Virus record (IMG/VR): IMGVR_UViG_3300036822_000050 | Location: 1-29,278 of that record | Source of the DNA: a virus | DNA: 29,278 nucleotides | Direction: 5' to 3' (one strand) | Shown here: in pieces, positions 11,493 to 28,750 of the stretch | Position numbering within the stretch: the stretch's first letter is position 1 | Layout of the letters: every line of letters begins with the position of its first letter | Program-made: the position numbers and the translations under genes | Notes under the pieces: generated by a model | Seen by the model: the letters and a program-made list of their open reading frames with translations, nothing else | Told to the model about the DNA's origin: nothing | Databases searched by the model: none

Positions 11493-11629
11493 TCGCTGAC
11501 CTGACTCGCTGGTGGCAGTGGGGGCCGCATGACGGTTTCAACCTCACCGGCACGCAACTGATGTGGTGGCTGGAGCAAGCACACCGCATCGCTGACCGGG
11601 AGCGCGACATGAGGGAACAGGGCAGGTAG
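11139..11629 (+). CDS. Tail assembly chaperone, long form by -1 frameshift
   Basis: If the ribosome slips back one base on T TTT TTA (11444-11450), codons continue from AGC 11450-11452 in the -1 frame to TAG 11627-11629. The product has 104 residues of the short form plus 59 more. The extension reads SALVARWPANWRDLVADLTR, then WWQWGPHDGF, and LMWWLEQAHRIADRERDMR, a Trp-rich end like those of long-form chaperones in Mu-like and other phages. This frame has no start codon with a ribosome site of its own, so it is otherwise unexplained coding space. The stop overlaps the tape-measure GTG start. Frameshifting is inferred, not measured. Confidence 0.85.
11444..11450 (+). other. -1 ribosomal frameshift slippery heptamer T TTT TTA
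   Basis: The 0-frame codons are GAT TTT TTA, so the heptamer has the X XXY YYZ form and permits both tRNAs to re-pair in the -1 frame. An AGGA sequence at 11431-11434 lies 9 bases upstream, the placement that stimulates -1 slipping in bacterial dnaX. A small hairpin (11470-11474 with 11479-11483) follows at a distance of 19 bases, which is longer than usual. Confidence 0.85.
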
Positions 11630-13620
11630 TGGCCGGCTACAGCGTCACCTATTCAGTCGTCGATAATGCCACCAAGCAAATCGACCAGATCAACCGCCGC
11701 ATCACCCAGATGCGTGCGCCGGTCGAGCGCATGGGCAAATCCTTGTCGCGGTTCGTTGACGTGTCTGGTCTGCGCAAGGTGGGTGATGCATTCGGCTGGA
11801 TCGCACGCTCGGCGGCTGGCGCATTCCGCTCCATCGTCGCCATCGTGCCGGCCCTGGGTGCCATCACCAGCGCCGCAACCATTGCCGGGATGGCGAAGCT
11901 GGTCGGGCATTTCGCTGAATGGGGCGCGACCCTCCAGACCAACGCCCATCAACTCGACATCAATGCAGACCAATTGCAAAGACTGGAGCACGCCACCAGC
12001 CGTGCCGGCGGGTCCGCCGAGGATATGGTGTCATCCCTCAAGGCGCTGCAAAAGGCCCAGGCCGACTCGATCGTATCCGGTGGTCCTGCCCTGGCGGCAT
12101 TCAACGAGTTGCATATCAGCGCACGGGACGCGAACGGCCAGCTAAAATCCACGCCGCAGCTACTGGGCGAAGTGCTCAAGGGGCTGGACAAATACCCGCA
12201 GGGAGCCGACCGCGCCCGCATTGCCGGTGCGTTGCTGGGTGATGAGCAAGGCAAGCTCTATGAGGCATTCCGCCTGAGCGGCAAATCCTACGAAGAATGG
12301 GTTGCCGCCGAGGCAGACCACCCGATCTTGAGCAAGGAGCAGCTTGAGGGACTGAACCAATACCGCCTTGCGATGGCAGGGCTGACAACGACGTTCGGCG
12401 GACTGGGTGAGCAGATCAGTGCGACGTTGGCGAAGAACCTGACGCCGTTCCTAAAGCACCTCGACGACTTCGTGCAGAAGCACCAGCCTGAGATACTTGC
12501 CGCCATCGACGCCATCTCCACCCGGTTCGGCAACTGGCTGAGCGATCCCAGCACCTGGGCAGCATTTGAACAGGGCGCGCATGATGTGGTCACCGCGCTT
12601 AAGCTGGTGATCGACAACCTGGACACGATCACCACAATGGCCGAGGTGATCGCCGGCATCTTCGCCGCCAAGTGGGCACTCGGCATCGTCGGCTCCATTG
12701 CCCAGGTGGTCACCGCGATTGGCACAGTCAGCGGCGGCACCGCCGCAGCCGCAGCCGGTGGCACAGGATTACTCGGCGCACTGGGGAGTGTCGCTATCGT
12801 CGCGAGTGCTCTTGGGGCGGCGGCTCTCGTCCACAAAGGGCTGGAAAAGGGCAGCGACTACGTTGAGGGCAAGGTGTTCGGCGAGGATCGCGTCGAAGGC
12901 CGCAAGCAGATGCAGGAGCAGGGGGCCAGTCAGTTCTGGGGCGCTCTGGGTGACCTGGGCCGGCGCATGTGGAATGGACCGGAGGCCATCCAGCGCCAGT
13001 CCATGAACCTGCCCGAAGCGACGGTGCAACGTGGGGCCGCGATCCGGGACAAACTGGCGACCGATCTCAACCTCACGCCCGCCCAGGCCTCAGGCATCGT
13101 CGGCAACCTGCAAGCAGAGTCGGGCCTCAAGGCTGTCCAGGAGCGCAACCCGATCGGTGGTGGGCGCGGCGGCTTCGGCTGGGCACAGTGGACCGGACCA
13201 CGCCGCCGCGAGTTTGAGGCCTACGCCAAAGAGCAACACCTGGACCCGAAAAGCGACGAGGCGAATTATGGTTTCTTGTTGAAGGAGCTTAAGTCGCCGG
13301 AATACGCAGCCATGCTGGCCAAGCTCCGCGCGCAACAGGGGAGCCAAGCGGCGCAAACCTCTGCCGCCATTGTCGAGCATGACTATGAGCGCCCAGCGGT
13401 CAGCAATGCCGGGACCAGGATGAGCATGGCGGGACAGATCGCAGCCGGCCCGCCCGCTGCGCCACCACCGCCAGCCGGCACCATCAACGGCGCGGTCGAT
13501 GTCTCGATCACCCACTCCAACCCGCCGCCCGATGCGACGGTCACTGCCAAGGGCAGCGGTTCCGTCAACGTGCAACCGCTGCGCACCGAGCGGCCCCAGG
13601 TGAATTTTAGCGACGTATGA
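11629..13620 (+). CDS. Tail tape measure protein with C-terminal lysozyme-like domain
   Basis: A 663-residue protein; its length sets tail length, so the tail should be fairly short. Residues 1-300 are mostly helical (TKQIDQINRRITQMRAPVER at 16-35). Hydrophobic stretches lie at about 66-95 and 340-400 (GIVGSIAQVVTAIGTVSGG, then LLGALGSVAIVASALGAAAL). Residues about 480-590 match phage tail lysozymes: LTPAQASGIVGNLQAESGLK with likely catalytic Glu 497, GGRGGFGWAQWTGPRR, and an end with EHDYERP. The lysozyme part probably opens the peptidoglycan during DNA entry. The end is Pro/Ala-rich. GTG 11629 overlaps the chaperone stop; the 3' end overlaps the next gene in ATGA. Confidence 0.92.
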   Translation: MAGYSVTYSVVDNATKQIDQINRRITQMRAPVERMGKSLSRFVDVSGLRKVGDAFGWIARSAAGAFRSIVAIVPALGAITSAATIAGMAKLVGHFAEWGATLQTNAHQLDINADQLQRLEHATSRAGGSAEDMVSSLKALQKAQADSIVSGGPALAAFNELHISARDANGQLKSTPQLLGEVLKGLDKYPQGADRARIAGALLGDEQGKLYEAFRLSGKSYEEWVAAEADHPILSKEQLEGLNQYRLAMAGLTTTFGGLGEQISATLAKNLTPFLKHLDDFVQKHQPEILAAIDAISTRFGNWLSDPSTWAAFEQGAHDVVTALKLVIDNLDTITTMAEVIAGIFAAKWALGIVGSIAQVVTAIGTVSGGTAAAAAGGTGLLGALGSVAIVASALGAAALVHKGLEKGSDYVEGKVFGEDRVEGRKQMQEQGASQFWGALGDLGRRMWNGPEAIQRQSMNLPEATVQRGAAIRDKLATDLNLTPAQASGIVGNLQAESGLKAVQERNPIGGGRGGFGWAQWTGPRRREFEAYAKEQHLDPKSDEANYGFLLKELKSPEYAAMLAKLRAQQGSQAAQTSAAIVEHDYERPAVSNAGTRMSMAGQIAAGPPAAPPPPAGTINGAVDVSITHSNPPPDATVTAKGSGSVNVQPLRTERPQVNFSDV

Positions 13621-14983: not shown

Positions 14984-16119
14984 CCACCGACGACACTTTG
15001 ACGCTCCAGGTGGGCAATCAGGTCCTGTCCGGGTGGCAACGGGTGAGCGTAACGCGCTCGATGGACGACTTTCCGGCGAAATTCGACCTGGAATTGACCG
15101 AAAAGTATCCGGCAACCACCGATGTGGATATTCAGCCGGGGCAACCGTGCACCGTCTCAATCGGCGGCGATCTGGTGCTGACCGGCTACGTCGACCGCTA
15201 CGGGGCCTCATTGTCGGGCTCAATGCACACGATCCGCGTCCAGGGTCGCAGCAAGTCATCGGATCTTGTGGACTGCTCGGCCTTCACCGGCTCCATCGAC
15301 CATCCGCAAACCCAGGTGCGCAACAGTGCCACCCTGCAAATCGCGCGCATCCTGGCGGAACCGTATGGCGTGACCATCAACAGCCTTGCCGGCGACGGCA
15401 CCAGCGTCCCGCAATTCAATCTCAACCTGGGCGAGACGGTGTGGGAGGTGATCGACCGCCTGCTCCGCATCAGCGGATTCGTCGCCTATGACATGCCGGA
15501 TGGCAGTGTGATGTTCGCGCGTGCCGGCACCGAGAGCATGGCATCGGGCTTTCATGTGGGCGAGAACGTGGAGGCCGCCGACGTGACCTATTCGATGGAT
15601 CAGAGGTTCTCGGACTACGAAGGCCATTTCCTGTCAGTGATGGGCTACGTCACCGATCCAGGCGTCAACGCCACCCAGGTCGGCCCAGTGGTGCACGATG
15701 CCGGCGTGCCGCGCTTCCGCAAACGCTTCGTCGTCTCTGAGCAGATGAGCGATGGCGAGAGCATTGCCGGCCTGCGTGCCAAGTGGGAATGCAACCGACG
15801 CCAGGGCCGGTCGCAGCAATTCAACGTCGTCGCCGACTCCTGGAGGGACACCGCTGGAGCACTCTGGGCACCGAACCACCTTGCCCCGATTGACGCGACC
15901 GTGCTCAAGCTGGGTCCCAGCAACTGGCTGATCGGCGGTGTGACCTATACGCGCGATGAGAACGGCCAGCACGCACAACTCACCCTCATGCCGCCCTCGG
16001 CGTTTGATCCAGAGCCAACCGTGGCGGTCCCAGTGATGCCGCTGCTCCAGCACATCGACGGCATCAACCCGACCGCGCCGAACGCGCCCAAGGCCACACC
16101 AGAGGTCGTCGCGACGTGA
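14980..16119 (+). CDS. Baseplate hub protein (Mu gp44/P-like)
   Basis: A 379-residue protein of the late-control-D/Mu gp44 type that forms the hub on which the spike sits. Signals: [75 protein letters not shown] (about residues 88-105), then an [13 protein letters not shown] helix and [20 protein letters not shown]. The end contains [20 protein letters not shown] and [20 protein letters not shown], as in gp44 relatives. ATGA overlap upstream and GTGA downstream place it between gp43-like and gp45-like genes as in Mu. Confidence 0.92.
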
Positions 16120-18533
16120 GCAACACGGATCGGCTCTATCGGCGCATTCTGATGACGACCGCCAGTTCGGTCATCACCGCCACCAACGACGACGGACCTG
16201 TGCACAAGGTGCAGGTCAGGGTGACGCCGCGCGAGACGATTGACGACGTGCCGGTGGTGCAACTTTACGGCGTGGCCTCACACGCTCCAGCGGGCAGTGA
16301 CGCCCATCTGCTGTTCGTCACCGGGGACCGCAGCAAGGGCGTAGCCGTCGCCACCAACAATCAGAAAGCACGGCTGCGGAATCTGGCTCCCGGTGAGGTC
16401 GCACTGTATTCCGATGAGGGTGACAGCATCCGCCTGTCACGCGGCAAGACGGTCGCCCTCAACGCCGGCAACGTGCTGCAATTCACCTCGCCGTTGTCCC
16501 AGTTCTCCGACAAGGTGCTGCTCGCGCACGATCCCGGCGCACCGCTGGAGGCAGCGACCAAGCAGTATGTCGACAGCCATGCCGGCAGCGGTGCGCAAGG
16601 CCCGCCAGGACCACAGGGGCCAGCCGGCCCGCCTGGGGCAACCGGACCCAGCGGCGCACCTGGAGCCACCGGACCACAGGGACCCAAGGGTGACACCGGC
16701 ACGACCGGCGCACAGGGATTGAAGGGCGACCCAGGCGCAACCGGACCCACCGGACCACAGGGGCCGCAGGGCATCACCGGCACCACCGGAGCAACCGGAC
16801 CACAGGGGCCGGCTGGTGCCGATAGCACGGTGCCGGGACCACAGGGACCGACCGGAGCGACCGGACCACAGGGACCGATCGGCCTGACCGGAGCACAGGG
16901 GGCGAAGGGTGATCCCGGAACGCCAGGAGCAACCGGCGCACAGGGACCCAAGGGTGACACCGGATCGCAAGGCCTGACCGGAGCCACCGGCCCGCAGGGA
17001 CCAACCGGCGCAACGGGTGCCGACAGCACCGTGCCAGGACCACAGGGACCGACCGGACCGCAGGGCACCACTGGAGCAACCGGACCACAGGGGCCGCAAG
17101 GTCTGACCGGAGCAACCGGACCCACGGGGCCGCAGGGGGCAACCGGACCACAGGGACCGACCGGCGTGCCGACCGAAGCACCCTCTGACGGCACGACATA
17201 CGGGCGACTCAACGCGACCTGGACCCAGGTGCTTCCGATCGCCGGGGGCACACTCACCGGCCCGCTCATCCTCGCGACTGATCCCACTGCGCCCCTTGGT
17301 GCTGCGACCAAGGAATACGTCGACGCGCGCACGCCGATCACGTCTGATGCGCCGAACAATATCTTTTCGTATGGCCGCTCTTCTGCTGCGTGGCGTCAGA
17401 TTCCCAGCCTAAACAGCATTGCCGGCGGCGCGTTTGATCCAGGCACCATCGACACGACGAACCAAGGCCGCATAGGTCTATGGCAGATCACCAATCAAAC
17501 CGGAGCGACCGGCTGGCCTTCCGGCAATGGGGATCAGACCGGCCTCGTTCTGCACGGCTACAATTCCAATGCCGGTTGGCAGTCCCAACTGATGATAGGT
17601 GGGCGTCACGTCGGGGGCCTATATCCGCCGATATGGGTCCGCACTGAGACTGACAATATTGGTGGGCCTTTTGGTTGGTCGCCGTGGCATCTGCTGATAA
17701 CCGATGCAGGCGGCACCTTTACCGGCGCAGTGACGACCAGTGCCGCGTTGCATACGCAAGCCGGCGTCGATTTCGGTTCCCAGGTCGCCGCCTCACCGAT
17801 CGACTTCTCGCACCACATTAACCTGTGGGGCGGTCAATATGGTTTCAGCATCACTAGCAGCCGACTCAACCTTGTCAGCGGCCAAGCAACGTACTTCGTC
17901 AGCGGCACCACCGACGTCGCCTATGTCGCCTCGACCGGCCTCACCTTGCTCCAGGGCGCGGTGACGCTTGCCGCTGATCCCACCACTGCCTTGCAAGCTG
18001 TGACGAAGCAGTACAACGACCGGGATAAAACACGCGGCCTTGTAGACGTATCGACCAACGCAGCATCGCCGACCGTGGCGCAGTCGGACTACGCATACCT
18101 CTACATTTACGGTTCGCCAACCGGACCCGCTACCATCACGATGCCGGTCGCGACCACGGTGCGCGTGCTGTGGACAATGAACAACACAACCACGCAACCA
18201 GTGACGATCCAGGGCACCAGCGGTGGCACCATCACGATTCCCGGTGGTGCCTCGCAGGGCGTGTGGACCGACACCGCCGGTATCTATCCGCTTTACAATG
18301 CAGGGCAGACGCGCGGTGCTGGTGACAATTCGACCTTCCTGGCGACGACCGCGTTCGTGCAGACCAAGGCAGCGGGTTATTTGCCACTCGCGGGCGGCAC
18401 CGTGACCGGACCACTGACGCTTGCCGCTGATCCCACTGCCGCATTGCAAGCTGCGACGAAGCAATATGTCGATGCCCTGGCGGCGCGCGTGGCGAAGCTG
18501 GAGGGTGGCTCGATCTGGGATGCGCCAGCATGA
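16116..18533 (+). CDS. Mu gp45-like baseplate spike fused to collagen repeats and tail fibre
   Basis: An 805-residue fusion. Residues 1-125 match Mu gp45 ([55 protein letters not shown]), a protein far shorter in Mu. Residues 159-352 are 60 Gly-X-Y triplets in three blocks (25, 20 and 15 triplets) broken by two identical GADSTVP interruptions. Residues about 360-790 form a fibre region with repeated modules of type [20 protein letters not shown], a central beta-rich part ([28 protein letters not shown]) and a C-terminal coiled end. It is expected to trimerise through the collagen helix. GTG 16116 overlaps gp44-like. It may combine spike and receptor-binding roles; how it can pierce a membrane is unclear. 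Confidence 0.9.
16518..16577 (+). repeat. Fibre module copy 1 ([12 protein letters not shown])
   Basis: Encodes [20 protein letters not shown], directly before the collagen region. It is one of five related 20-21 codon modules in the two fibre genes of this window and probably forms a short trimeric fibre unit. Confidence 0.85.
16590..17171 (+). repeat. Collagen-like Gly-X-Y coding repeat
   Basis: Sixty in-frame Gly-X-Y codon triplets, rich in GGACCACAGGG-type units (Gly-Pro-Gln-Gly) and GCAACCGGA-type units (Ala-Thr-Gly). Two GADSTVP interruptions divide it into 25, 20 and 15 triplets. The near-identical 9- and 18-base units make it prone to length change by recombination or slippage. Confidence 0.95.
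17265..17327 (+). repeat. Fibre module copy 2
   Basis: Encodes [20 protein letters not shown], preceded by a GGTLTGP box, just after the collagen region of the spike-fibre gene. Confidence 0.85.
17961..18020 (+). repeat. Fibre module copy 3
   Basis: Encodes [20 protein letters not shown] in the spike-fibre gene. It is the most divergent copy, with Asn in place of Val in the YVD end. Confidence 0.85.
18414..18476 (+). repeat. Fibre module copy 4
   Basis: Encodes [20 protein letters not shown] close to the C-terminus of the spike-fibre protein, preceded by GGTVTGP. Its DNA is close to copy 3. Confidence 0.85.
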
Positions 18534-23469: not shown

Positions 23470-24030
23470 ATGCCGTTCTATGCAGGGTTCGACCACACTC
23501 AGCCGGAGCCGATCCCGGTCAGCGGCTGGTATGATACCGACCTGATCGACTATCCCAACCTCCCCGCCGCCGACGACTTGCTGGAGATGACGCCGGAACA
23601 ATGGGCCGACCGGATGACCGGATCGTGGGCGATCGAGGGCGGTGCCCTGGTGCCCTACACGCCGCCCCCGCCTGTCCTGACGCTGCCGCAGCAAGCGACC
23701 GCCATGCTGTCCCAGCCGGTAACGGTGGACTGCATCAGCACGCCGGCCCTCTCATCGGACTATGCGAACAACGCCAACGTGCGGCAGTCAGTGACCAGCA
23801 CCGTGTCGCAAATCTCTGCCGGCCTCGGCCTGCCTGGGGGCGGGGCTACGTTCAACTGGCCAGACGTGAATGGATCCGAGATGCAGTGGCCGGAGGCCGA
23901 CTTCGTGGCGTTCGCCAAGGCCCTCACCGATTTTGCCTATGCCTGCCAGATGGTGGTGGGGGGACATAGCGCCGTCCTGCCATCCAGGACCTTGACGGTG
24001 GACGTAGCGGCCTTGCAGGGCCGCAAGTAG
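23470..24030 (+). CDS. Probable tail fibre assembly or DUF4376-like protein
   Basis: A 186-residue protein starting at ATG 23470, five bases after the fibre stop; a poly-G stretch (GGGGGT) is the likely ribosome site. Layout: an N-terminal segment (FYAGFDHTQPEPIPVSGWYD), a helix with MTPEQWADRM, a Pro-rich linker PYTPPPPVLTLPQQA, and a C-terminal helical half containing VTVDCISTPALSSDYANNAN and EADFVAFAKALTDFAYACQM, a pattern found in DUF4376-type proteins near fibre genes. It is the last gene of the rightward operon and may be a fibre chaperone. The family call is tentative. Confidence 0.72.
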   Translation: MPFYAGFDHTQPEPIPVSGWYDTDLIDYPNLPAADDLLEMTPEQWADRMTGSWAIEGGALVPYTPPPPVLTLPQQATAMLSQPVTVDCISTPALSSDYANNANVRQSVTSTVSQISAGLGLPGGGATFNWPDVNGSEMQWPEADFVAFAKALTDFAYACQMVVGGHSAVLPSRTLTVDVAALQGRK

Positions 24031-24051
24031 GGGGCCGGCGAACCGGCCCCC
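24030..24051. terminator. Bidirectional hairpin between convergent operons
   Basis: A perfect 9-base-pair stem, GGGGGCCGG with CCGGCCCCC (24030-24038 and 24043-24051) around a CGAA loop, starting at the last base of the fibre-assembly stop codon. It ends eight bases before the stop codon of the - strand HTH gene (24059). No T run follows on either side, so it may be a weak intrinsic terminator or a stabilising end for both transcripts. Confidence 0.7.
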
Positions 24052-24058
24052 GGTTCCG

Positions 24059-24526
24059 TCAATCCCCCTGCACGATCATCCCGGCATCGAGCAGGAGCCG
24101 GAGCAGGGCAACGCCGCGCTCTGCCGGTACAGTCAGGTCCAGCCGCAGCCGTGCCGATCCGTCCGCCAGGACCGCGAATTGCAGCACCTCAGGCACCCGC
24201 GCGACTGCCCCCGTGCCGGGGCTGGGGAGGCGCACCAGGGCGGTCCCCGGCTCCGCTGCCACACTCACCCGCTCACCCACCGCGCGCCGCTCCAGCGAGG
24301 CCGCAGGCACGCCCAAGACCTTGGCGAGCTTGGGCCGAATTCCAGGGCCGGGAGCGCCCTTGCCATTGATCCAATGATAGACGCCGGTATGACCGCGCTC
24401 GCGACCGATCGCCTGATTCAGATCGGCGTGGTTCATCCCCTTGGCCGTCATCGCCTCCCGGATCGCCGCCGCGACGTGGCCGAACATGGCGATTTCCCGC
24501 GCCGTGGCTGGTGTTGCCTGCCTCAT
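24059..24526 (-). CDS. HTH (XRE-like) transcriptional regulator
   Basis: A 155-residue protein starting at the ATG that overlaps the previous stop (ATGA). Residues about 20-75 form a helix-turn-helix: AAIREAMTAKGMNHADLNQA, then GVYHWINGKGAPGPGIRPKL and AKVLGV, as in XRE/Cro-CI type DNA-binding domains. Residues 105-155 are a second small domain with beta strands (LQFAVLADGSARLRLDLTVP) and a C-terminal helix ALLRLLLDAGMIV that may dimerise. No LexA-like protease motif is visible. As the last gene of the integrase-side operon it is a candidate lysogeny regulator, but its position is not the usual divergent one. Confidence 0.85.
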   Translation of the reverse strand: MRQATPATAREIAMFGHVAAAIREAMTAKGMNHADLNQAIGRERGHTGVYHWINGKGAPGPGIRPKLAKVLGVPAASLERRAVGERVSVAAEPGTALVRLPSPGTGAVARVPEVLQFAVLADGSARLRLDLTVPAERGVALLRLLLDAGMIVQGD

Positions 24527-24825
24527 GCCACCCTCCGTTGCCGGGTGGCGGTATTGTCAGCGGCGACGCGCAACCGAGGGATGGAGATGCGCGGCGGCGC
24601 TGCCTCCGCGACCAGGGCGTAGTACGCGTCGATGTAGCAGGTGGTGATGGACTTAATGCCGGTACGCTCCCGGCCTCCCTTTTTCGCTGACCAGCACCAT
24701 CCCGTCATCATCCTCAGTTCGCCCTCTTTGCGATGCTCATTCCACCGTGTGGCCATGCTCACATCGACGTAAAAGATTTTCGCCACCTCATCGACCTGGG
24801 CGACGATGTTTGCCTTAATCCACAT
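24523..24825 (-). CDS. Hypothetical protein upstream of HTH regulator
   Basis: A 100-residue basic protein beginning at ATG 24825, with the ribosome site AAAGGAAACCCG inside the preceding gene (11-base overlap). Its N-terminus, ANIVAQVDEVAKIFYVDVSM, then ATRWNEHRKEGELRMM, could be a helix-turn-helix-like segment; further on are TCYIDAYYALVAEAA and an Arg-rich tail. The stop overlaps the HTH gene's ATG in ATGA, so both are probably made together. I do not recognise the family. Confidence 0.75.
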   Translation of the reverse strand: MWIKANIVAQVDEVAKIFYVDVSMATRWNEHRKEGELRMMTGWCWSAKKGGRERTGIKSITTCYIDAYYALVAEAAPPRISIPRLRVAADNTATRQRRVA

Positions 24826-25168
24826 CGGGTTTCCTTTCAGAGATCGTGATAAACGTGACCATCAGACTCACCTCTTTCAGAGTGATGACCGGATCGGCGT
24901 TGATGTAGCCGTTCGGATATTCCTCACCGTCGATTTCACGCCCGACGACGATGCCGTTGCCGGCAAACACCCGCCCGTCATGCAGGCGAAACCAGTGCGC
25001 AGGGTCCTTTAACAGCCCTTCCTCATCAACGAACATCGTGTCGCCGTTTTGCCACAGGACCGCCGTTTCGATGAAGCCACGCACCAACTTTTGCAGGTCC
25101 GCGAGGCCGCTTATCTCCACCTCGCGAACCGTCTGGGTGGCCGAGTCAATGAACAAGGCCTTGCTCAT
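24815..25168 (-). CDS. DUF3846-like protein
   Basis: A 117-residue protein from the ATG at 25168, chosen because AAAAGGA lies 7 bases upstream; an in-frame ATG six bases earlier and an upstream open frame exist. It opens with ALFIDSATQTVREVEISGLA, then LQKLVRGFIETAVL, MFVDEEGLLKD, and FAGNGIVVGREIDGEEYPNG, a pattern like DUF3846 proteins, small acidic proteins of phages and plasmids (function unknown). The family call is from pattern only. The 3' end overlaps the next gene by 11 bases. Confidence 0.8.
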   Translation of the reverse strand: MSKALFIDSATQTVREVEISGLADLQKLVRGFIETAVLWQNGDTMFVDEEGLLKDPAHWFRLHDGRVFAGNGIVVGREIDGEEYPNGYINADPVITLKEVSLMVTFITISERKPDVD

Positions 25169-25225
25169 AGTCATTCCTTTTGGGTTTGCATTTGCGGGAA
25201 CGAAAGCCGGGTTTTGCGAGAATTG

Positions 25226-25255
25226 CAATCCCCTCCACCCGGCGAGAGGGGATTG
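25226..25255 (-). other. Stem-loop in intergenic leader upstream of DUF3846-like gene
   Basis: A perfect 10-base-pair stem, CAATCCCCTC (25226-25235) with GAGGGGATTG (25246-25255), around a 10-base loop. It lies between the preceding stop (25264) and the DUF3846-like start (25168). There is no following T run on the - strand, so it is either a leader structure or a weak terminator. Confidence 0.55.
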
Positions 25256-25261
25256 TTTCGG

Positions 25262-25489
25262 TCAGCGGACGGCTGGGCAGGTCCGCCGCGTGCCGCGCGT
25301 GAGCCAGCGCAAGCCGCCGTTGGGAAACACCACCAGGACATACCAGCCCTCGGCAGGGTAATGCCTGATTGAATAGTCATCATCAGGGTTGCTGGGTTTG
25401 TATTCCATGATGGCGACCCGTGCCTCCAGTTCATCCCGGAAGGGCACAGCGTCCACGCGATACTGGAGCGTGGTGAGGGGGAGATACAT
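25262..25489 (-). CDS. Small hypothetical protein
   Basis: A 75-residue protein from the ATG at 25489, which has ACAAAGGACCCTCAA in front, a leader nearly the same as that of the gene upstream; an ATG at 25507 overlapping the upstream stop (ATGA) would give 81 residues. The sequence contains LEARVAIMEYKPSNPDDDYS and a strand-rich end, YPAEGWYVLVVFPNGGLRWL, then a basic tail. It looks like a small soluble beta-rich protein. Family unknown. It is followed by a hairpin at 25226-25255. Confidence 0.75.
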   Translation of the reverse strand: MYLPLTTLQYRVDAVPFRDELEARVAIMEYKPSNPDDDYSIRHYPAEGWYVLVVFPNGGLRWLTRGTRRTCPAVR

Positions 25490-25503
25490 TTGAGGGTCCT
25501 TTG

Positions 25504-25713
25504 TCATTTGTTAAACAGCCAGTTCCACACCGGGCGTCCGAGGAAATAAACGACCGGCCACGCGCGCCAGAGTATCGAGGCATCGGCAATGAAAATAAGC
25601 AGGTCGTAAACCCGTATCGAAATTAACCCGGCATAGCCGAGGCCAATCGCGAGGCCCGAGAAGAGGCACCATGGGAGGTTGAACGGCCAGATGCGGAGCA
25701 GTGCTACGATCAT
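25504..25713 (-). CDS. Small membrane protein
   Basis: A 69-residue protein starting at ATG 25713 with ACAAGGAACCCGCAA in front. It has two or three hydrophobic segments: MIVALLRIWPFNLPWCLFSG, LAIGLGYAGLISI, and VYDLLIFIADASILW, followed by aromatic residues and the end VWNWLFNK. It is therefore an inner-membrane protein. No holin motif is evident, but size and topology permit it. It lies downstream of the secreted ClpP-like gene and may work with it. Its ATG also overlaps the stop of an 18-residue frame (ATGA). Confidence 0.75.
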   Translation of the reverse strand: MIVALLRIWPFNLPWCLFSGLAIGLGYAGLISIRVYDLLIFIADASILWRAWPVVYFLGRPVWNWLFNK

Positions 25714-25766
25714 TTGCGGGTTCCTTGTGATGAGGGGGGAGGCACGGTTACAATTCGCACAGCCAT
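25710..25766 (-). CDS. 18-residue leader peptide (candidate)
   Basis: A very short frame from ATG 25766, MAVRIVTVPPPSSQGTRK, ending in an ATGA overlap with the membrane protein. Its start sits behind the same hairpin and Shine-Dalgarno sequence that precedes the ClpP-like gene start, which is the main argument that this ATG is used. It may be a leader peptide or the remnant of a lost gene. Confidence 0.4.
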   Translation of the reverse strand: MAVRIVTVPPPSSQGTRK

Positions 25767-25829
25767 GGCGAAGATTGTCCCTTCGTTGTGGTCAGAGACG
25801 GCGCGAGCCTTGCAGGGGTCGCGCCGTCT
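25764..25829 (-). promoter_or_regulatory. Structured leader, copy A
   Basis: Contains a stem-loop (25796-25806 paired with 25819-25829; on the plus strand ACGGCGCG against CGCGCCGT at its core) with CCTTGCAGGGG in the loop. This is followed in - direction by CGAAGGGACAATCTTCG, in which CGAAG/CTTCG can pair and which holds the ribosome site AAGGGA, two bases before ATG 25766. It is nearly the same as copy B. Confidence 0.6.
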
Positions 25830-25835
25830 TGCTGT

Positions 25836-26783
25836 TCAGTGTGACTTAAGCGCCCGCTCATATTCCTGGGCGCTCACTGGGGGCATCGGCTTGGCGACTG
25901 GCGGCGTGGTCATCCTGGACGAGACCTTTTGTGCTTCCACCATTTGCGCGTATGCCCAGCCATAAGGATCAGGTTGCGCATAGAGCGTTTGCCACACGCT
26001 CGGGTCCTTTGCCGCCGCAGATTTTATCCAAGCGACCGTCGCGACCACCGCCTCGGCTCCGGCTTTCTGCCGAAGAAACGCCTCCGACGCATTGAGGCGA
26101 GTATTCAGTTCTGTCCATTCAGGAGTGTTGGGGGCCGGGTAGGCGACTGGCGGCGTGGTCTTGGCGACCACCGGGGCGGGCGGCTGCGTCGGTGCCGCCG
26201 TAGTGGAGGCCGGCGTAGGCGCGGGGACCGTCGTTACCAAAATACCGAGGTCGTTGGCCTTGGTTGCATTGAACCAATCAATGCCGCTGGGTGGCGCGGT
26301 CATGGTGTAAAGGATCGCCTTGTAAGACAACCCGATATGGCTGAGAAACGCGCCGATCACTGCCGACCCGGCTCCGCTCTCGGCCCCCTTGTCATCCGCT
26401 GCGGCATGGAAGCCGATATGCGAGGTCGTGACCGCGTAGCGTTGAGTTCCGGCCAGCCACATAATGCCGCAAATCGACGCGCATAACTTGTTGTCACCCA
26501 CCCAGGTCGTGAACCCGCGATCGCGAATCGTCTCCGCGATTTGGAGGCCCGCCAAGACGTTCCCGCCTTTGCTATCGAATGCAACGCGGCCTTGGCCTGT
26601 TAGCGTCTTTGCCGCCGCCTCAAACTTGGCGAAGTCGCCTTGCTCGATCTCGCCGCTGATGAAAATAATATTCACCGGGGCTGGATACACTTTGAACGTT
26701 GCGGCATGAGCCGAGACGGCAGCGCAAGAGATGCCGGCGGCAAGAGCGGCGGGGAGCAGGCGTGATATGGTTGTGTGTGTCAT
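25836..26783 (-). CDS. Secreted ClpP-like serine protease homologue (COG3904 type)
   Basis: A 315-residue protein with a clear signal peptide (LLPAALAAGISCAAVSAHA, cut after about Ala 27), so it acts in the periplasm or outside. Residues 37-180 resemble the ClpP/crotonase fold: VNIIFISGEIEQGDFAKFEA, VAFDSKGGNVLAGLQIAETI, LCASICGIMWLAG with likely nucleophile Ser 103, and SHIGFHAA with likely general base His 126. Residues 180-230 are a Pro/Thr/Ala-rich linker and 230-315 a helical tail. Such proteins occur in alphaproteobacteria; targets are unknown. It lies among small membrane proteins, which suggests an accessory (moron) unit. Starts at ATG 26783 behind structured leader B. Confidence 0.85.
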   Translation of the reverse strand: MTHTTISRLLPAALAAGISCAAVSAHAATFKVYPAPVNIIFISGEIEQGDFAKFEAAAKTLTGQGRVAFDSKGGNVLAGLQIAETIRDRGFTTWVGDNKLCASICGIMWLAGTQRYAVTTSHIGFHAAADDKGAESGAGSAVIGAFLSHIGLSYKAILYTMTAPPSGIDWFNATKANDLGILVTTVPAPTPASTTAAPTQPPAPVVAKTTPPVAYPAPNTPEWTELNTRLNASEAFLRQKAGAEAVVATVAWIKSAAAKDPSVWQTLYAQPDPYGWAYAQMVEAQKVSSRMTTPPVAKPMPPVSAQEYERALKSH

Positions 26784-26844
26784 GACGAAGATTGTCCCTT
26801 CGGGGTTGGAGGCCGGTGCGTTCCTTGCAGGGAGCCGCGCCGGT
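26781..26844 (-). promoter_or_regulatory. Structured leader, copy B
   Basis: Has the same parts as copy A: a stem (26813-26820 paired with 26836-26843, one C-A mismatch in the - transcript) with CCTTGCAGGG in the loop, then CGAAGGGACAATCTTCG directly before ATG 26783. The 22-base block next to the ATG differs from copy A by one base. Confidence 0.6.
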
Positions 26845-26858
26845 TGGGTGGTTTGAGT

Positions 26859-26987
26859 TTAGAAGTTCGACGGACTGAACAGCCATTGCCAGAGTCCGAT
26901 CTGCCAACCGTCGAAGCAGATTTTGGCGAACAGATACAGGCTAAGGGCCAGTAGGATTTGCATGAAGGTGCGAAGAACGAGAGTCAT
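26859..26987 (-). CDS. 42-residue membrane peptide
   Basis: A gene too short for usual calling: ATG 26987 lies behind CACAAGGAACCCAACCC, a ribosome site like that of the membrane protein at 25713. It encodes 42 residues with one hydrophobic segment, FMQILLALSLYLFAKICF, followed by an aromatic, Trp-rich end GWQIGLWQWLFS. It lies directly upstream of the ClpP-like gene and downstream of the integrase. Function unknown. Confidence 0.65.
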   Translation of the reverse strand: MTLVLRTFMQILLALSLYLFAKICFDGWQIGLWQWLFSPSNF

Positions 26988-27030: not shown

Positions 27031-28308
27031 TTATGCCGCCTTCCACAGTTGGACGACGTTGCCTTCCTGGGGGGCCTCCATGCCGATCAGGGCGAGGGCT
27101 GGAGGTGCCCCCACCATCAACAGGTCGGCCCATGCACACGCGAGCGCATGACGACGTGGCATGTGCGTGGCGTGGTCATAGTGTGCGGCTGCGGCACTGG
27201 CCTTCATTGGCTGGTGCCCGATCATCATGTCAGTGAGCCGGTAACGGGACTCATCCTGTTCGTTGAGGATCGTGACAAACGTGGAGCGCCAGCCGTGGAG
27301 CGTGTGCTTGCCCTGCAAACCGCGCCGGTCGTAGAGGTCGTTGAGGGTGGAGTCAGAGAACGGCTGATCCGACACCCCAGGTCTGGCCGGAAACACATAC
27401 CGGGCACCCAGGGTGCGCAACTGTTGCGCCGCCTGGATCACCTCCATTGCCTGGGGGGACAGGGGCACCACATGGTCGCGCCGCTGCTTGGTCCGCTTGG
27501 CGGGCAAGGTCCATTCCGCCTTGGCCAAATTGAACTCGGCCCATTGTGCCTTGGTGGCCTCCACCTTGCGCACGCCGGTTAGGGCAATCAGCCGGTGGAG
27601 CAGCTTGAGCACACCAGACGCCCGACCCGTGCTGGCCTCCACCACCTGGAGCACCGCACGGGCGTCCTCGATCGTGCTGACATGGATGTGGGGTTGCTCC
27701 GGGTTTTCCTCCCGACGCCGGCTGGGCAACCAACGCGAGTTGCGCTGGACGGGGTTGTACTGGATCAGGGGAGGATTAGCCGCCATGGCAAAGTCGAACA
27801 GGGCAGAGAGGTTGCCGCGCACATGGGTGGCCTGGGCGTAGTGGGTTTTGTCCAGTTCCAGGATGCGAAAAACGTGGTCCCTGGTCACCTCACCGATGGG
27901 CAGGTTGCCGATCACCGGATAAACGTACTTGCGCAACCGTGCCGCGTGCGCCTTGGCGACTCCCGGAGTCCAGTTTCGGTTGGCACGTTTCAGCCAGTCC
28001 TCACCGACCCGCTCAACCGTCTGGGCATTGGCCTCCAGCCGGCCCGCCACCACTGCCCGCTTGAGGGCCTGGGGATCATGCCCTTCGCTGACCTGCACGC
28101 GCACCATCTCCCGTGCATTGCGCGCCTGGGCGAGCGACATGGTGGGATAGTGGCCGAGGGTGTGCTTCTGCTTTTTGCCGTTGCGAATGACCAGACACCA
28201 CCACCGCTTATTGCCGGTGGCAGAGACGGTGAGCAGGAGGCCACGACCGGCGCGAAATTCCTCCTGCCCGGTGGCGACCGTGATGGTCCGGGGATCAAAC
28301 TTGCTCAT
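27031..28308 (-). CDS. int: Tyrosine site-specific integrase (P4/DUF4102 type)
   Basis: Integrates and excises the phage genome at a host att site. 425 residues from ATG 28308 (ribosome site GGAGG, ATGA overlap with the upstream gene; an ATG eight codons earlier is less likely). The N-terminal DUF4102-like arm contains GRGLLLTVSATGNKRWWCLV and LGHYPTMSLAQARNA. The core-binding part follows at about 95-190. The catalytic residues are visible: Arg 247 (TGVRKVEAT), a Lys in PAKRTKQRRDHVVPL, His 338 and Arg 341 (LHGWRSTF), His 365 (IGHQ) and nucleophile Tyr 377 (AAAHYDHAT). All are present, so it should be active. A hairpin GGCGGC/GCCGCC covers its stop codon. Confidence 0.94.
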   Translation of the reverse strand: MSKFDPRTITVATGQEEFRAGRGLLLTVSATGNKRWWCLVIRNGKKQKHTLGHYPTMSLAQARNAREMVRVQVSEGHDPQALKRAVVAGRLEANAQTVERVGEDWLKRANRNWTPGVAKAHAARLRKYVYPVIGNLPIGEVTRDHVFRILELDKTHYAQATHVRGNLSALFDFAMAANPPLIQYNPVQRNSRWLPSRRREENPEQPHIHVSTIEDARAVLQVVEASTGRASGVLKLLHRLIALTGVRKVEATKAQWAEFNLAKAEWTLPAKRTKQRRDHVVPLSPQAMEVIQAAQQLRTLGARYVFPARPGVSDQPFSDSTLNDLYDRRGLQGKHTLHGWRSTFVTILNEQDESRYRLTDMMIGHQPMKASAAAAHYDHATHMPRRHALACAWADLLMVGAPPALALIGMEAPQEGNVVQLWKAA

Positions 28309-28547
28309 CTGGAGCCTCCCGTGAACGGCCATTGCCGCGCCGTCTCATCACTGGGAACGGTCACCGGGGCAGGCTTCTCGACCCGCGACAGCCATGTGGC
28401 ATTGATCCGCACTGGCCGCGCACTGCCATTGAACAGGACCCACCGCATCCCCTTGGGGGACTTGTTGCCGTGCGGTGAACGGACGATGACGCCGATCTGC
28501 CCGGTGAGCCGGTTGCTCACAGCGGTGCCGAAGGTGAGGGCGCTCAT
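28305..28547 (-). CDS. Small hypothetical protein upstream of integrase
   Basis: An 80-residue protein from ATG 28547, which overlaps the stop of the gene before (ATGA-type coupling). The frame is open upstream, but the earlier part lies over the neighbour and is not protein-like. It has beta-rich, basic sequence: FGTAVSNRLTGQIGVIVRSP, then GMRWVLFNGSARPVRINATW. Its stop overlaps the integrase start. It could be a small DNA-binding or excision-related protein because of its position and charge, but no family is recognised. Confidence 0.7.
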   Translation of the reverse strand: MSALTFGTAVSNRLTGQIGVIVRSPHGNKSPKGMRWVLFNGSARPVRINATWLSRVEKPAPVTVPSDETARQWPFTGGSR

Positions 28548-28750
28548 TGTGCTGCCCCCGTGCCGGGGTTCTGGGCGACCATGGCAATGCCGGTGTCCCG
28601 TGCATCCTCCAGGTCCCCGGTGTAGTAGGCAGTGGCCTCGCCGGCCCCCCGGAAATTCACCCGGTATTCGGACCATTCCGTGGTTTTGATGACCACACCA
28701 ATCTGCCGCAACTGGGTGCGGACTGAGGTGAGGGTGAGCTTGTTTGCCAT
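28544..28750 (-). CDS. Small hypothetical protein, first gene of integrase operon
   Basis: A 68-residue protein starting at ATG 28750, with no strong ribosome site (AAAGCAAAACAAA in front). It begins KLTLTSVRTQLRQIGVVIKT and continues TEWSEYRVNFRGAGEATAYY and DLEDARDTGIAMV. Proteins with this N-terminus are, from memory, common near integrases in Bradyrhizobium-like genomes; function unknown. It is the first gene after the divergent control region. Confidence 0.75.
   Translation of the reverse strand: MANKLTLTSVRTQLRQIGVVIKTTEWSEYRVNFRGAGEATAYYTGDLEDARDTGIAMVAQNPGTGAAQ

Follow-up and report, generated by a model that had tools for sequence, protein, structure and literature searches.

A possible lysogenic-conversion region with an exported ClpP-like gene at the tail-integrase junction of a temperate phage

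The DNA stretch analysed here (the window) is in its entirety one virus record, IMGVR_UViG_3300036822_000050, of 29,278 bases. At positions 24059 to 26987 it carries a block of seven genes (the module), one of which, the clpP-like gene, encodes an apparently exported protein with a ClpP fold. We read the module as a lysogenic-conversion (moron-type) cargo region in the tail-integrase slot of a temperate phage whose tail spike protein is of the Mu type, a reading for and against which our confidence is evenly balanced. It is based on the coding signal of the genes, the ClpP fold and active-site alignment of the exported protein, its rhizobial relatives, the absence of the module from the syntenic relative G016, the repeated leader elements beside the clpP-like gene and the opposite orientation of the module.

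Gene content and accessory status of the module

Read from the integrase towards the tail genes, the module comprises minus-strand open reading frames (ORFs) of 42, 315, 69, 81, 117, 100 and 155 codons. With a codon table derived from the phage's own structural genes, all seven scored positive (0.23 to 0.45 per codon) and the ORFs overlapping them on either strand were all negative (-0.13 to -0.67); overlapping plus-strand ORFs were discarded on account of these scores, and the seven module genes are real. A first-pass annotation, made from the letters alone, had named 42- and 69-residue membrane proteins, an exported ClpP-like protein with Ser103 and His126 and several small proteins, all on one strand between an integrase and a regulator, and these features were all recovered here. 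It had also described related ribosome sites, which is borne out for the genes of the 42-, 69-, 117- and 100-residue proteins, each with AAGGAA upstream, but not for those of the 81- and 155-residue proteins, which begin at ATGA overlaps, nor for the clpP-like gene, whose different leader contains hairpins. Only short gaps separate the seven genes, and the last five are joined by overlaps or near-overlaps in two sub-operons.

The plus strand up to position 24,030 is occupied by genes for terminase, portal, capsid, tail sheath and baseplate proteins, and a minus-strand block with the integrase follows; the module is bordered by the tail genes (+, ending at 24030) on one side and the integrase (-) on the other, and runs opposite to the late genes. 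It presumably lies at a prophage end; a tRNA search found no transfer RNA marking an attachment (att) site, and the likely attachment site beside the integrase was not located.

G016 (43,436 bases), a syntenic phage and the closest relative of full length, shares 67 % identity in terminase, 76 % in portal, 77 % in capsid and 67 % in sheath. There, small ORFs come after the tail genes; the last of them has 91 residues and is followed directly by a minus-strand integrase with 39-41 % identity, and no match for any module gene was found in this genome. Since the module has no counterpart in a syntenic phage, it is accessory, variable cargo at the tail-integrase junction, in agreement with the earlier view that virion making does not require the set; the position beside the integrase is likewise upheld. 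Measured against G016, the window record appears to lack roughly 14 kilobases (kb) of early genes, or about one third of the genome.

An apparently exported protein with a ClpP fold

The 315-residue protein consists of an apparent signal peptide, a ClpP-fold domain at about residues 31-190, a Pro/Ala/Thr linker and a helical C-terminal part modelled with low confidence. The AlphaFold2 model of the domain is confident (predicted local distance difference test, pLDDT, about 68-91 across most of residues 31-190), and it matched ClpP in Foldseek at 2.9e-7 and a ClpP from the PDB in VIA-align with Z about 16 over 150 aligned residues. At the profile level, hhalign related the protein to a true ClpP of the same host group with probability 89.5 and E 2e-6; its Pfam ClpP (PF00574) score lies below the cut-off (11.7 vs 20.2 bits). 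Weak Pfam matches to Herpes_U47 and MFS_MOT1, as well as Fab matches, were set aside as composition noise.

On alignment by hmmsearch and hhalign, Ser103 and His126 correspond to the nucleophilic Ser and the His of ClpP, and both are invariant in the relatives. Equally invariant are Cys101 and Cys105, which flank Ser103, an arrangement that suits a disulfide-containing exported protein. Where ClpP has its catalytic Asp, the window protein has Ile168, and in the relatives this column is neither acidic nor conserved, although the alignment is less certain near the C-terminus. If the protein is an enzyme, a Ser/His pair or another acid would therefore have to serve, and the adjoining Asp169 could be the substitute. 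Enzymatic activity is something that we infer. Ser-Lys chemistry of the SppA or NfeD type was dismissed, the invariant residue being His and not Lys.

The signal peptide, a hydrophobic stretch ending SAHA-A that was judged by eye, argues for a role at the envelope. Together with the ClpP domain, the C-x-S-x-C motif and the His motif, it gives the features of exported ClpP-like (COG3904-type) proteins, a label assigned by resemblance, without a match to the COG3904 profile itself. Of the earlier description of this gene product, a ClpP-fold protein with an apparent signal peptide is upheld.

An exported enzyme-like protein and small membrane proteins adjoining tail genes could also point to a lysis-type set, in which holin-like membrane peptides and the exported protein would help to breach the envelope, and no lysis cassette was recognised elsewhere in the incomplete record. 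However, the set lies on the strand opposite to the late genes, the ClpP fold is not a muralytic one, and the third of the genome seemingly missing relative to G016 could hold the lysis genes, all of which makes this explanation highly improbable.

Relatives in bacteria

The closest relatives, with about 35-43 % identity over the ClpP domain, are found on chromosomes and plasmids of Rhizobium, Neorhizobium, Sinorhizobium, Microvirga and others. Of 385 alphaproteobacterial genomes drawn evenly, 35 contained the family (matches of E 1e-10 or lower), some of them in several copies, and the C-terminal parts vary. The clpP-like gene is mostly a chromosomal or plasmid gene of bacteria. Its bacterial neighbours are variable and include genes for transposition, a resolvase, a DNA methylase and translesion polymerases, besides others (named by eye where unannotated). 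The family is rarely near an integrase: among the matches listed, one was found within 20 kb of a family member in only one of 26 genomes (G034, at 13 kb).

These counts, the occasional multiple copies and the varied C-terminal parts and neighbourhoods favour a captured bacterial hydrolase of periplasmic quality control or stress, which would benefit the lysogen and have nothing to do with competition between phages. Against this, the literature searched yielded no functional study of exported ClpP-fold proteins and no host phenotype for the family, and the recurrence of the gene in phages, described below, suggests some benefit to the phage; we consider host fitness a somewhat unlikely explanation.

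Some bacterial loci deserve mention in their own right. In Rhizobium sp. ASV20 (L038:8407-10816), two different exported ClpP-like genes, of 410 and 301 residues, adjoin each other, and a similar close pair of matches is present in another genome (G029). In Rhizobium ruizarguesonis (L041:5543-15020), the clpP-like gene lies amid genes that by eye resemble those of SIR2 and CD-NTase defence proteins.

Relatives in phages

More distant exported relatives occur in the Agrobacterium phages Atu_ph07 and Atu_ph08, and an exported clpP-like gene is conserved, with 53-60 % mutual identity, in six Vibrio phages of 122-138 kb (VnaP, VPMCC14, qdvp001, PWH3a-P1, 10AMN and IBT_VpB-34). The alignment scan gave one relative on a viral contig (L118), which has a clpP-like gene; no evident phage genes were seen in the stretch read, so the contig was not counted as phage. 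The first-pass annotation had also considered that the gene might turn out to be a lone host gene with no phage link. It is mostly bacterial, yet the link exists, in other phages and with other neighbours.

This recurrence across unrelated phages has a bearing on superinfection exclusion, in which the exported protein, together with one of the membrane proteins or both, would keep other phages from delivering their DNA; injected tail or tape-measure proteins, attacked in the periplasm, are conceivable targets. Exclusion genes are known from phages such as HK97 (gp15) and T4 (Imm and Sp), and the prophage-side position, the apparent export and the two small membrane proteins fit their layout. 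On the other hand, PADLOC, PHROG and Pfam gave no meaningful defence or exclusion match for the membrane proteins or the ClpP-like protein (a result of little weight for short proteins), the small proteins accompany the clpP-like gene nowhere else among the loci examined, and most homologues are host genes. Exclusion is a possible but unlikely role for the module.

A repeated leader element around the clpP-like gene

The clpP-like gene, and no other gene of the module, is bracketed by two direct copies, of about 70 nucleotides, of a structured leader element (Table 1). The stem sequence of the GC-rich hairpin differs between the copies, whereas the second hairpin, CGAAGGGACAATCTTCG, is identical in both. 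A fold more stable than that of shuffled sequence was seen for copy B (z -4.6) but not for copy A (z -0.9). An exact 17-mer occurs twice in the window, with no third copy even when three mismatches were allowed and none in the viral contigs. At equal distance after each copy there is an ATG, that of the clpP-like gene after copy A and that of a possible leader ORF of 18 codons after copy B, the stop of which overlaps the start of the 69-residue protein gene. The leader hairpin partly masks AAGGGA, a would-be ribosome site, and might in this way regulate translation. If the copies recombined, the clpP-like gene would be excised precisely, which suggests that the gene and one element may have arrived as a unit. 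An Rfam match to SymR (22.9 bits vs 61, E 0.52) was regarded as chance.

That the repeats enclose the clpP-like gene alone is one of the points in favour of the module not being a single unit, in which case independent cargo and ordinary phage accessory genes, such as those for the DUF3846 protein and the helix-turn-helix (HTH) regulator, would be neighbours by chance. Two further points are that relatives of the DUF3846 protein are present separately in other phages and that the neighbours are conserved in no other locus: no relative of the 42-, 69-, 81-, 117-, 100- or 155-residue protein was found near any other clpP-like locus examined. The seven genes nevertheless share a strand with short gaps, and the linkage of the last five within sub-operons speaks for cohesion. 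We regard a chance assembly as plausible, with doubt slightly outweighing belief. The expectation of one undescribed, conserved system is not supported by this comparison, and most of what the first-pass annotation had named as refuting it was observed, although the rarity of sequenced relatives leaves room for a multi-gene system.

Small proteins, hairpins and neighbouring genes

Most of the small module proteins had no relatives among the collections searched, and single-protein scans of viral contigs with the ClpP-like protein, the integrase, the regulator and the 100- and 81-residue proteins gave no confirmed relative. The two membrane proteins passed a Kyte-Doolittle test modestly, with 19-residue maxima of 1.87 and 1.78. 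Stem-loops are present in three module gaps; one of these, before the DUF3846 gene (25166-25265, -), holds the strong hairpin CAATCCCCTC/GAGGGGATTG. Where the tail genes and the module converge, another strong hairpin is likely a boundary or terminator.

Table 1. Features of the module and its borders (positions in the window).
Feature	Position	Strand	Basis
Strong hairpin at convergent tail-gene/module junction	24030..24051	.	Fold, -22.5 kcal/mol
155-residue HTH-like regulator; start overlaps stop of 100-residue gene (ATGA)	24059..24526	-	HTH_3 E 0.002 (under cut-off); PHROG transcriptional repressor 4.8e-5
100-residue protein; start overlaps 117-residue gene	24523..24825	-	ORF and codon score; no relatives
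117-residue DUF3846 protein	24815..25168	-	Pfam DUF3846 2.8e-11, 43.9 bits vs cut-off 27.5
81-residue soluble protein; start overlaps stop of 69-residue gene (ATGA)	25262..25507	-	ORF and codon score; no relatives
69-residue hydrophobic membrane protein	25504..25713	-	Codon score 0.27; hydrophobicity; no match in phages, plasmids, families
Leader element copy B, directly after clpP stop, then possible 18-codon leader ORF MAVRIVTVPPPSSQGTRK	25764..25830	-	Repeats, 17-mer, fold, alignment
clpP-like gene, 315 residues	25836..26783	-	Sequence; AlphaFold2; Foldseek; VIA; hhalign
Leader element copy A, directly upstream of clpP ATG: GC hairpin, then hairpin CGAAGGGACAATCTTCG	26781..26847	-	Repeats, exact 17-mer, fold, alignment
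42-residue single-span membrane peptide	26859..26987	-	Codon score 0.45; hydrophobic stretch; no family match
Tyrosine integrase, module border	27031..28308 (alternative start 28332)	-	Pfam Phage_integrase 3e-14, Arm-DNA-bind_3 2.3e-16; PHROG integrase 7e-44

Upstream of the integrase, a 68-residue protein (28547-28750, -) matches phrog_7884 at 7.3e-7 and is possibly an excisionase-side accessory gene product. Among the tail genes, one (16116-18533, +) encodes an 805-residue protein in which a baseplate spike domain of the Mu Gp45 type (PF06890, 7.9e-19) leads into four stretches of collagen repeats (PF01391, 2.5e-25) and a long part resembling a tail appendage. Such a fusion of a spike gene with a collagen-like fibre looks unusual, and the gp45-like gene of G016 encodes just 166 residues. 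The tape-measure-like protein (11629-13620, +) includes a phage tail lysozyme domain (PF18013, 1.8e-22).

A possible mode of action

In the cargo reading that we favour, the module genes would be expressed in the lysogen, either together with the integrase or following it, and apart from late tail transcription. The ClpP-like protein would be exported to the periplasm, held by a Cys101-Cys105 disulfide near the active site, and would cleave or bind proteins of the envelope or incoming ones with no help from an AAA+ unfoldase; no unfoldase gene is present within the module. The role of the two small membrane proteins may be to anchor or modulate it, unless they are separate cargo. Soil alphaproteobacteria are the probable source of the clpP-like gene, which would have been acquired in one piece together with a copy of the structured leader now found on both its flanks.

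Certain observations weigh against this reading. The large Vibrio phages with exported homologues are, we presume, virulent, so the action of these genes need not be tied to lysogeny. A weak scan of the region revealed no minus-strand promoter-like site of the sigma-70 type. The GC content of the clpP-like gene, at 0.61, is near that of the structural genes (0.64) and gives no strong foreign signature, and the absence of the module from relatives rests on one complete comparator, G016.

A broader conjecture would be that unrelated phages independently acquired exported, disulfide-bearing, unfoldase-free ClpP-fold proteins, here with small membrane proteins under a duplicated leader, which serve to control proteins of the envelope while the phage infects or persists as a lysogen, for instance in phage exclusion. 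We think this quite improbable.

Comparison with known systems

The fold and the Ser and His positions are shared with ClpP peptidase (MEROPS S14, PF00574), from which the window protein differs in its apparent signal peptide, its disulfide-like Cys pair, the Ile at the catalytic Asp column and its sub-cut-off Pfam score. The exported ClpP-like proteins of Rhizobiaceae and Microvirga share with it the signal peptide, the G-D-x3-F start of the domain and the motifs S-x-GG, I-x3-IR, C-x-S-x-C and FHAA (or close variants); these differ in lying in bacterial genomes, in their neighbours and in their C-terminal parts, none of which is shared with the window protein. The Vibrio and Agrobacterium phage proteins are likewise phage-borne, with C-x-S-x-C and the active His invariant in those aligned and signal-peptide-like N-termini in Atu_ph07 and VnaP, but they are 23-29 % identical and come mostly from much larger phages, and the annotated stretches read show neither an integrase nor any of the small genes. 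Morons and lysogenic-conversion genes of phages, such as those of the lambda b region and HK97 gp15, similarly are dispensable-looking genes by an integrase that are absent from a close relative, although no sequence relation to the module was found.

As a system, the module is a single case, and its components are not conserved as a set. The phage link of exported ClpP-like genes was already known, and the region looks like ordinary phage cargo rather than a shared new system; the bracketing of the clpP-like gene by two structured leader copies is a new detail. Exported ClpP-fold proteins are common among soil bacteria, widespread in alphaproteobacteria and recurrent in phages, and a compact phage cassette such as this one offers a convenient test case for their role.

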